Positions 18,968-29,537 of a stretch of DNA of 64,000 nucleotides are shown here, one piece after another. The notes below the pieces were generated by a model that was not told the origin of the DNA, searched no databases, and worked only from the letters and a program-made list of their open reading frames with translations. Source of the stretch: Snodgrassella alvi wkB2 (GTDB taxonomy: Bacteria > Pseudomonadota > Gammaproteobacteria > Burkholderiales > Neisseriaceae). Positions within the stretch are counted from its first letter, which is position 1. The number at the start of each line of letters is the position of its first letter. The translations under genes and the position numbers were made by a program. The stretch covers positions 620,001 to 684,000 of the forward strand of contig NZ_CP007446.1 of NCBI RefSeq assembly GCF_000600005.1, read 5' to 3'.

Positions 18968-18978
18968 GTGTAGCAGGG

Positions 18979-19016
18979 CTCCTAGTTTTTTTTCGTGGGA
19001 TGGATTGCGAACCACG
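18979..19016 (-). promoter_or_regulatory. preQ1-I riboswitch
   Basis: Read on the minus strand: CGTGG, then TTCGCAATCCAT, then CCCACG closing a five-base stem, then an A8 tract and CTAGGAG. This follows the preQ1-I layout (GG-UUC-binding loop, CC, A-rich tail that folds back, then CUA/SD), and is close in form to the Thermoanaerobacter tengcongensis aptamer (stem, GGUCGCA loop, A-rich tail, AAGG). The tail contains the SD, so ligand binding should block translation initiation. It precedes queD-queE, the expected target in preQ1 biosynthesis. Confidence 0.8.
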
Positions 19017-19138
19017 TGGTTATTCAGTTTTCAATAACACATTTGCTGTGTGAAGGGATTTCTATTACTTCAAGTATATATTTTAATGGTATCAGCTGTT
19101 TTCTTACAAGGGTAACTGTGAGTAACTGCGGGATTGAT

Positions 19139-28124: not shown

Positions 28125-28700
28125 TTATTGAGTAAGGCATGCGGCAATAATGGTATGTTCTTTCAGACACAGATTGTGAGCAAAATATAAACTATTTTCT
28201 ACCAGCCCCAGATCTTCTTCGCACTGAGTTTCAGTTTCAATAATCAGCATTTGTTCCGGCCGTCCAGCATGCAGGCTCATGCGCATTTGTGCGGGAGTAA
28301 ACGGCAGATTATGCTTTTGGGCGAAGCTGCGTGCACGGCTGTTTGCTGTTTTCAGCATGGGTATCAGGGTAATATCCAGATGAAAAATTCTTACACCCAT
28401 TACCAGAATACGTGCGGCAAACCAATCTGCCTCATCACTGATAATATCAGGAGTAGGTTGTTCAAAGCCCAGACGCTGTGCAGCAATTAACATTGCTATC
28501 AGGCGAAGCTGAGGAATCAGAGCTTCACTAAGCATAAATGCAGTCTGGAATTGTGGCTGTAGCTGACATAGGTCAGAGCGGTGCTGATTGCCGTCAACAA
28601 TCATGTACCACCGTTGAAGCTGAGCCACAGGTGATTCTGATTGCCGTATCTGATTTAGCGGTAATGCGGACATTTTATTCTCCAGTAGTTGTCGATTCAT
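28125..28700 (-). CDS. Unrecognised protein behind an aromatic leader attenuator
   Basis: 191 residues from ATG 28700 (AAGG 8 bases upstream) or 182 from ATG 28673, which has the stronger SD GGAG at 6 bases. No signal peptide or clear membrane helix; the sequence is mostly helical with a central hydrophobic stretch (EALIPQLRLIAMLIAAQRLG). I do not recognise a family. A leader peptide packed with Phe, Tyr and Trp codons and an intrinsic terminator lie immediately upstream, so the gene is probably regulated by aromatic amino acid supply and may act in that metabolism or in transport. Follows ubiX on the same strand. Confidence 0.75.
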   Translation of the reverse strand: MNRQLLENKMSALPLNQIRQSESPVAQLQRWYMIVDGNQHRSDLCQLQPQFQTAFMLSEALIPQLRLIAMLIAAQRLGFEQPTPDIISDEADWFAARILVMGVRIFHLDITLIPMLKTANSRARSFAQKHNLPFTPAQMRMSLHAGRPEQMLIIETETQCEEDLGLVENSLYFAHNLCLKEHTIIAACLTQ

Positions 28701-28736
28701 TTGTAATGCCTTTCTGTATGAGGCGTTTGTAGCAAC

Positions 28737-28766
28737 AAAAAACCGCCTCGGTTTGGCCGGGCGGTT
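28737..28766 (-). terminator. Attenuator terminator
   Basis: On the minus strand AACCGCC (28766-28760) pairs with GGCGGTT (28747-28741), extended by CGG/CCG around a short loop, then a T6 tract (28742-28737). It lies between a leader peptide and the start of the gene it would regulate, 37 bases before ATG 28700. Its 3' arm contains ACCGAGG (28752-28746), complementary to CCTCGGT inside the leader frame (28824-28818), giving a competing structure. Confidence 0.8.
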
Positions 28767-28792
28767 CACTTTTTTATTTTGCTTATTAGATA

Positions 28793-28870
28793 TTATATAA
28801 ACGCAAAAAAGCACCGCACCGAGGTGTGGTACCAATAATAAGCAAAAGAGAAAGTGGTTGCGTTTTTCAT
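28793..28870 (-). CDS. Aromatic-residue leader peptide
   Basis: 25 codons from ATG 28870 (or 26 from the adjacent ATG 28873) to TAA at 28795-28793, with SD TAAGG 7 bases before the second ATG. Within residues 7-24 the peptide reads FSFAYYWYHTSVRCFFAF: five Phe, three Tyr and one Trp in 18 residues. This is the composition of classical attenuation leaders such as PheL. The hairpin ACCACAC/GUGCGGU and the downstream terminator complete the attenuator. TTGACA at 28905-28900, at the end of ubiX, may be a -35, but its spacing to a -10 is poor, so co-transcription with ubiX is possible. Confidence 0.75.
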   Translation of the reverse strand: MKNATTFSFAYYWYHTSVRCFFAFI

Positions 28871-28901
28871 CATTAAACCTTAAACCTTATTGAAACATGT
28901 G

Positions 28902-29537
28902 TCAAGAATTATTTTTTTCACCCCAGCGTGTAATCAACTGATGAGGTATATGCAACTGGTCCAAAATACGTCCAACTACAAAATCCACCATATCCTGAAT
29001 AGTTTGAGGGTGCTGATAAAAACCGGATACTGGGGGCAGAATGCATACACCCAAACGTGACAGTTTAAGCAGATTTTCCAAATGAATGGCTGATAAAGGC
29101 GTTTCCCGCGGTACGATGATTAGCGGACGATTTTCTTTAATCGATACATCAGCTGCCCGTTCAAGTAAATGGTCGGAAGTGCCGGCTGCAATGGCAGCAA
29201 CACAACCCATGCTGGCCGGACAGATAATCATTGCATCAGCGGGATTGGAACCAGAGGCCGGAGGTGCAAACCATTCATCGCGGCCAAATACAGTAAGCAT
29301 GGATAAGTCTACGCCGTATTCTGCACACAATGCGGCATTACACTGTTTAGCATTTGCAGGTAAATGCCAGTTGATTTCCTGTTGTGCGACTATCTGGGCA
29401 GCCTGTGAATACAGTAACCAGACCCTTATATCAGCCTGTAACAGGCAGCCCAGCAGACGTTTGGCATAAGGCATACCCGATGCTCCGGTAAGAGCCAGCG
29501 TAACGGTTTTGACAGAATGAGCAGAGGGAAAAATCAT
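28902..29537 (-). CDS. ubiX: Flavin prenyltransferase
   Basis: 211 residues. LALTGASGMPYAKRLLGCLL binds FMN, SGSNPADAMIICPASMGCVAAIAAGTSDHLLERAADVS and PLIIVPRETPLSAIHLENLL are standard UbiX segments. It prenylates FMN to make the cofactor of UbiD decarboxylase in ubiquinone synthesis. Cytosolic. Its 3' end abuts the leader-peptide attenuator of the next gene. Confidence 0.95.
   Translation of the reverse strand: MIFPSAHSVKTVTLALTGASGMPYAKRLLGCLLQADIRVWLLYSQAAQIVAQQEINWHLPANAKQCNAALCAEYGVDLSMLTVFGRDEWFAPPASGSNPADAMIICPASMGCVAAIAAGTSDHLLERAADVSIKENRPLIIVPRETPLSAIHLENLLKLSRLGVCILPPVSGFYQHPQTIQDMVDFVVGRILDQLHIPHQLITRWGEKNNS

Follow-up and report, generated by a model that had tools for sequence, protein, structure and literature searches.

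A probable ribosome-mediated attenuator that would sense aromatic tRNA charging, in front of an uncharacterised and possibly TrpRS-like protein of Neisseriaceae

Introduction

The attenuators of the trp, phe and his operons are built from the same parts: a leader open reading frame (ORF) rich in cognate codons, a protector stem, alternative antiterminator and terminator pairings, and a spacing that allows a stalled ribosome to choose between them. A variant is found in Sinorhizobium meliloti, where according to the part of the source consulted the Trp leader mRNA (trpL/rnTrpL) starts at its own AUG and the attenuated target is trpE(G) (PMC7298713). Small regulatory proteins may also be placed under such sensing; in the consulted accounts of Bacillus subtilis, expression of rtpA, which encodes the zinc protein anti-TRAP, follows uncharged tRNA-Trp by a T-box mechanism. 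HisZ, for its part, is a regulatory subunit. The hisZ gene of bacilli with a His leader peptide, as the consulted part of that source describes it, is a synthetase-like paralogue under leader-peptide attenuation, with clear homology to the HisRS family (PMC2965389).

The locus described here shares the general architecture of the trp, phe and his attenuators, and differs from them in that the target is a lone orphan gene instead of a known pathway gene, that the leader has a Tyr-Trp-Tyr core together with Phe, and that the 5' side of the antiterminator is the end of the leader ORF itself. With S. meliloti it shares attenuation and a leader mRNA starting at the AUG, the latter being a prediction in our case, and the target is an uncharacterised protein rather than trpE(G). 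Its likeness to rtpA lies in the proposed kind of product and signal, and the relation to a synthetase, clear for hisZ, is weak here. No paper on this leader or this protein was recognised in the open-licence PMC literature; riboswitches have been reported for the gonococcus, and the consulted part of that report mentions "leader peptide" once, for opa (PMC4176332).

Judging from sequence comparison, a genuine attenuator is very probably present here and belongs to the classical ribosome-mediated type (trp/phe), and its target gene is the novel part. We are fairly confident of the reading as a whole, in which the attenuator senses aromatic tRNA charging and controls a possibly TrpRS-like, non-catalytic protein.

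Arrangement of the locus

The window is the whole stretch of DNA that was analysed, 64,000 nucleotides of Snodgrassella alvi wkB2 (contig NZ_CP007446.1, positions 620,001 to 684,000), and coordinates are counted from its first letter. Comparison with relatives, at protein identities of up to 88%, likewise puts it within or close to S. alvi. On the minus strand the order is ubiX, the leader ORF, the hairpin with its T6 tract, and then the 182-aa gene.

28902 to 29537, minus strand: ubiX (flavin prenyltransferase, by family match), the upstream neighbour, given as context only
28900 to 28905, minus strand: predicted -35 box TTGACA of the leader promoter, from the sequence
28877 to 28882, minus strand: predicted -10 box TAAGGT, 6 nt 5' of the leader ATG
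28793 to 28870, minus strand: leader peptide ORF of 25 codons, MKNATTFSFAYYWYHTSVRCFFAFI and stop, with its ATG at 28870 (ORF translation)
28829 to 28852, minus strand: putative regulatory codons F S F A Y Y W Y, with the Tyr-Trp-Tyr core at 28837-28829
28836 to 28847, minus strand: segment 1, UUUUGCUUAUUA (leader codons), 5' side of the protector stem in the MFE fold
28777 to 28788, minus strand: UAAUAAGCAAAA, 3' side of the protector stem in the MFE fold
28802 to 28817, minus strand: GCGGUGCUUUUUUGCG, predicted 5' side of the antiterminator at the end of the leader ORF, with the seed GCGGU at 28817-28813
28761 to 28775, minus strand: AAAAAAGUGAACCGC, predicted 3' side of the antiterminator, including the 5' arm of the terminator (duplex calculation)
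28737 to 28766, minus strand: intrinsic terminator, AACCGCCCGG-CCAAA-CCG(A)GGCGGUU and then T6 (fold, -17.1 kcal/mol); hairpin at 28766-28741 and T6 tract at 28742-28737 (sequence and fold)
28125 to 28673, minus strand: candidate target, the orphan gene of 182 aa, with a GGAG ribosome-binding site at 28683-28680

Both the 25-codon aromatic leader frame and the GC-rich terminator with T6 before the next gene, as described in a previous sequence-only reading of this DNA, are thus present. That reading gave the protein 182 to 191 residues; 182 is the length that stands, and 191 is obtained only with a start at ATG 28700. A further in-frame ATG of the leader exists at 28873, the conserved start being the one at 28870. 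The orphan gene apparently stands alone, and the next gene beyond it, on the opposite strand, encodes an AsnC/Lrp-type regulator. Folding of the region is better than that of 200/200 dinucleotide shuffles (z -3.9).

The only Rfam match of the window at the gathering threshold is a PreQ1 riboswitch at 18976-19021 on the minus strand (46 bits). Membership of the leader in the Rfam families Phe_leader (RF01859, 34.4 bits, below the 55-bit threshold) and Trp_leader (RF00513, 19.3 bits, below the 41-bit threshold) was rejected on these covariance scores.

Conservation of the leader peptide and of its gene

The orphan protein occurs in 79 of 83 Neisseriaceae genomes and in 20 of 399 genomes of an order sample, 11 of them from the same family and nine from a second family (f28), whose homologues are weakly similar (E 1.5e-21 to 9.4e-4). 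Seventy loci were read from the 79 genomes, and since these loci are related the counts that follow are not independent. With a broadened pattern an aromatic-run ORF precedes the orphan-gene homologue in all 70 loci (62 with a stricter first pattern). Both patterns demanded Tyr-Trp or close variants, so that the presence of Tyr-Trp in 62/62 canonical leaders is forced. An unforced check, which takes the upstream short ORF densest in Phe and Tyr alone, recovers Tyr-Trp in 67 of 70 loci. It does not do so in L047 and L049, where the run is YYYRW, or in L074, where the leader ranks second. Aromatic leaders are also found in 9/9 loci of f28, two of which carry YYYGY instead of YYWY. These two counts bear out the conservation in relatives that the sequence-only reading had set as a test. 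A leader was likewise recognised in 70/70 upstream regions vs 48/2100 shuffles, a comparison that is partly circular because Tyr-Trp or two variants of it were demanded and the criterion was set after these loci had been seen.

Residue counts were taken from 62 canonical distinct leaders, the codon table leaving out six differently spaced loci and identical copies. Tyr follows Trp in 59 of these. An aromatic residue occupies position -2 in 51 (F 29, Y 21, W 1), the others including S 4 and C 4. As read from these alignments, Tyr-Trp-Tyr is the nearly invariant core of the leader, and mixed sensing of Phe, Tyr and Trp is plausible.

The tRNAs that read UNN codons carry ms2i6A, and loss of ms2i6A relieves trp and phe attenuation. 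It might therefore be supposed that the leader reports undermodified tRNA (ms2i6A37; UNN codons for Phe, Ser, Tyr, Cys and Trp), or slow translation generally, and not aromatic charging, and the frequent swaps among UNN codons at its variable positions, such as position -2, would suit this idea. However, the F-S and Y-C swaps are single transitions that may be drift, the Tyr-Trp-Tyr core is held more strictly, and an Ala codon lies inside the aromatic run, so that we consider it improbable and retain aromatic charging as the likelier signal.

A covariance model (R1) and its alignment (A4) were built from 50 of the 70 loci. R1 matches at E <=1e-5 in 77 of 83 Neisseriaceae genomes, and in every case the match lies immediately 5' of the gene (tables compared by eye); no R1 match is present in any of the four Neisseriaceae genomes without the protein, although in two of these four the loss of protein and leader may be a matter of assembly, because the genomes are in at least 360 contigs. 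In G061 the protein is present without an R1 match, and in G063 the sole R1 match (E 0.007) lies elsewhere in the genome. The model is weak outside Neisseriaceae: at E 0.01 it matches in 16 of 300 order-sample genomes and finds two of the f28 genes. Weak second matches in G009, G029, G046, G050, G059, G060 and G063, as well as the matches in G291, G322 and contig 138 of G155, resemble unrelated terminators and were discarded.

Promoter and translation start of the leader

Of 66 distinct upstream regions, 14 carry an exact TTGACA at -35 or -36 relative to the leader ATG (chance rate 42/14000 for -36 to -28); 20 more have it at -37 to -39, and in the remainder it is farther up or inexact. The -10 element reads TATGGT or TATGAT in close relatives, and TAAGGT of the window is a weak match to TATAAT that was missed by the motif scan. 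A -10 box 6 nt before the ATG predicts a leaderless transcript, and from this arrangement transcription probably starts at the leader AUG. The "good SD" that had been ascribed to the leader has to be given up as a real feature: an SD-like tetramer precedes 7 of 66 distinct leaders (the window's included) vs 58 of 70 downstream genes, and the AAGG of the window lies inside the predicted -10 box.

Could the frame be a chance ORF and the hairpin the plain terminator of ubiX? The position of the leader directly behind ubiX and the unconserved SD would be as expected. Against this, the leader is conserved across Neisseriaceae and in another family, promoter-like TTGACA occurs just 5' of it in 34 of 66 regions, and in L017 and L018 (the same as L066 and L073) the upstream neighbour is not ubiX and the leader is still there. 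Since it is kept where ubiX is not upstream, the leader belongs to the orphan gene, and a chance origin is hardly credible.

Two further observations concern this segment. In the window the stop codon of ubiX (TGA, 28904-28902) sits inside the predicted -35 box. In L038, L039, L043, L063, L064, L067, L076 and L080 a short ORF of the MEGLQ..F....LL..LDFLF type recurs across the leader promoter; it may encode a genuine small protein or simply follow from the conservation of the promoter.

Terminator, antiterminator and predicted protector stem

A terminator of -10 kcal/mol or below is present in 70/70 loci vs 180/1400 random windows. Among 50 aligned sequences its closing pair is G-C in 30, A-U in 19 and G-U in one, and the CCGC columns are invariant. 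The sequence-only reading had proposed that CCTCGGT in the leader pairs with ACCGAGG in the 3' arm of the terminator. This complementarity does exist in the window; 2 of 68 loci preserve it exactly, 14 of 68 form at least six contiguous pairs, and as a general antiterminator mechanism it was rejected on the exact count. The conserved antiterminator instead joins GCGGU of the leader (the V-R-Y/C codons) to RCCGC in the 5' arm of the terminator, and this seed forms at least five contiguous pairs in 67 of 68 loci. L047 and L049 were excluded from these pairing counts, as the arm was located by the RCCGC pattern, which they do not have.

Sampling of synonymous codons, with the pooled codon usage of the downstream genes, reaches the observed seed pairing in a mean of 2.5% of cases; L075 (31%) and L036 (11%) stand apart. 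The antiterminator duplex continues through UUUUUUGCG. Its computed energy is -19.0 kcal/mol in the window and lies between -13 and -27 kcal/mol in 67 of 68 loci, L087 being the exception at -8.8, and its advantage over shuffled spacers is modest (mean z -1.74). The protector stem is clear in the MFE fold of the window; over 68 loci the protector duplex with the spacer has a likewise modest mean z of -1.49, and in several loci the stem was not seen.

Peptide positions C-terminal to the Tyr-Trp-Tyr core are conserved as well (HTxVRY). Such conservation, together with the predicted leaderless start as in S. meliloti, might speak for a short RNA or leader peptide that acts in trans like Sinorhizobium rnTrpL/peTrpL, the terminator serving mainly to make the RNA. 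However, the rare codon CGG accounts for 66 of 92 leader Arg codons after Trp vs 66 of 890 in the downstream genes, and because Arg is mostly encoded in this way, RNA pairing explains some of the constraint on HTxVRY. Leader and gene are moreover retained together and lost together, and we judge a main role in trans very improbable and attenuation in cis the better account.

In 60 of 70 loci, 17 nt separate the Trp codon from GCGGU. By ordinary footprint reasoning, this spacing lets a ribosome at Tyr-Trp-Tyr break the protector stem while GCGGU stays free. Stall simulation of the window gives 1.2 leader-terminator pairs in the free RNA, 6.9 with a ribosome stalled at Trp and 0 with one at the stop codon, and the terminator pairs fall from 9.7 to 5.9 under the stall. 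Among 62 loci simulated at equilibrium, at least three leader-terminator pairs appear under the stall in 19, and in 11 of the 62 they form with no ribosome present; the terminator is the preferred fold in most Neisseria even under stall. This method is blind to a co-transcriptional choice made before the 3' arm of the terminator exists.

Aromatic attenuation, as first proposed for this locus, is strongly supported by the conserved leader, the near-fixed spacing and the joint presence and absence of leader and gene; the pairing then named and the SD are not conserved.

The downstream protein

Neither Pfam nor NCBIfam gives the window protein a match above the curated cut-off, and the earlier statement that it matches no aromatic pathway enzyme holds, no enzyme family lying above the cut-off in these two collections. 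Two weak matches were taken as chance: PHP_C, found in 13 of 19 relatives (best E 0.006) and below the cut-off in the window protein, and glycine C-acetyltransferase (3/58, best E 5.6e-4).

Structure prediction of this protein, which had been suggested with the first description, hinted at a weak resemblance to the Rossmann core of bacterial tryptophanyl-tRNA synthetase (TrpRS). AlphaFold models were obtained for the window protein (pLDDT 75, pTM 0.73) and an N. elongata relative (pLDDT 68, pTM 0.68), and among the best 50 Foldseek hits in the PDB, TrpRS makes up 49 for the former and 45 for the latter. The best E is 2.3e-3 (TMq 0.39) for the window model and 0.13 for the N. elongata model, none being 0.001 or below, with a TM-score of about 0.4 and an overlap of roughly 85-135 aligned columns in most TrpRS hits. 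Against viral models the best E was 0.44. PDB sequence searches returned four chance-level hits (E 0.37 to 2.1), none of them TrpRS, and a second search returned none.

In profile comparison by hhalign, family residues 43-133 align with TrpRS 77-185 (49 TrpRS sequences), with a score of 19.96 vs 19.02 for the best of 60 column shuffles and a probability of 0.8%. The TyrRS profile scores 22.2 over 20 columns and ubiX 16.9, and a TrpRS-TyrRS control has a probability of 95.7%. HIGH-type and KMSKS are the motif names for aminoacyl-tRNA synthetase catalysis; on reading the 182-aa protein, neither was found. The protein may share a predicted fold with TrpRS and differs from it in lacking these motifs and any significant sequence similarity, and TIGR00233 (tryptophanyl-tRNA synthetase) is not among its profile matches. 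Because hhalign barely beats the shuffles and the catalytic motifs are missing, the TrpRS relation is treated as a lead. All 31 relatives searched have an intact trpS. A tyrS above the cut-off is present in 29 of them, and the other two genomes are 60% and 68% complete.

The sequence-only reading had suggested a possible new player in aromatic amino acid metabolism, and a biosynthetic or catabolic enzyme unrelated to TrpRS would be compatible with the absence of a family match. It would also agree with aroG (DAHP synthase), where an F/Y/W leader ORF is found in three of eight loci of other families of the order; such mixed aromatic leaders on common-pathway genes fit, without proving, an aromatic-starvation role of the orphan protein. 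However, the window protein lacks an enzyme family above the cut-off, the fold hits are TrpRS, and trpB is present in each of the 83 Neisseriaceae genomes, also in those four that lack the protein, so that trpB co-occurrence is uninformative and there is no simple link between the protein and having the Trp pathway. An enzyme unrelated to TrpRS hence seems unlikely to us.

We instead lean to a regulatory role. The weak TrpRS resemblance directs attention to tRNA charging and away from the pathway enzymes, and the product may, on the predicted models, be small and non-catalytic and either descend from the TrpRS Rossmann core or resemble it, possibly as a TrpRS-derived pseudo-enzyme. It may likewise act in regulation or as an accessory factor, and not in biosynthesis, and be produced when the charging of aromatic tRNA fails; most likely it is a response factor for such failure. 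The fullest version of this proposal, a stand-alone, catalytically dead TrpRS relative under a leaderless leader that acts as an aromatic-starvation response factor in Neisseriaceae and the second family, is doubtful as it stands.

Other aromatic leaders were noticed in the same material. The aroG leader ORFs are those of L232, L233 and L236 from three other families, a terminator having been read by eye in L232 only; among 16 Neisseriaceae aroG loci (14 from Snodgrassella) a short aromatic ORF was seen in L224 alone, and there is none in the genome of the window. A second trpB has its own Trp-type leader and terminator (MNTQNFFWRNWQLHFGAAHDCAVC) in two of ten such upstream regions read, at 310-442 in L186 and 326-458 in L187, from two Neisseriaceae genomes. 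In L209 and L210 of family f51 (about 300-480) a Tyr-Tyr-Trp-Tyr leader and a terminator stand before a 179-aa protein, for which homology to the orphan family could not be demonstrated in these two genomes.

Proposed mechanism and its meaning for the family

The RNA part of the model is well supported. Ribosome stalling, the direction of the response and the amino acids that count are inferred, and the function of the protein more weakly so. The transcript would begin at the leader AUG. With ample charged tRNA-Tyr, tRNA-Trp and tRNA-Phe, the ribosome would reach the leader stop codon and cover GCGGU, or alternatively the protector stem would form behind it; in either case the terminator could fold and transcription would stop. 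When aromatic tRNA is undercharged, the ribosome would stall in the F-A-Y-Y-W-Y run and open the protector stem, which would free GCGGUGCUUUUUUGCG. The freed segment would then pair with AAAAAAGUGAACCGC, which holds the 5' arm of the terminator, and RNA polymerase would read through into the orphan gene.

If the stand-alone TrpRS relative proves true, the product would match anti-TRAP or HisZ at the protein level and would represent a new class of regulators derived from aminoacyl-tRNA synthetases, and if the TrpRS resemblance holds, this would be another case of a synthetase fragment turned regulator. The codons of an attenuator reveal what its target gene serves, which makes it a direct and cheap route to the function of a protein family; here a conserved attenuator points a family of uncharacterised proteins, present in most Neisseriaceae, to aromatic tRNA charging.
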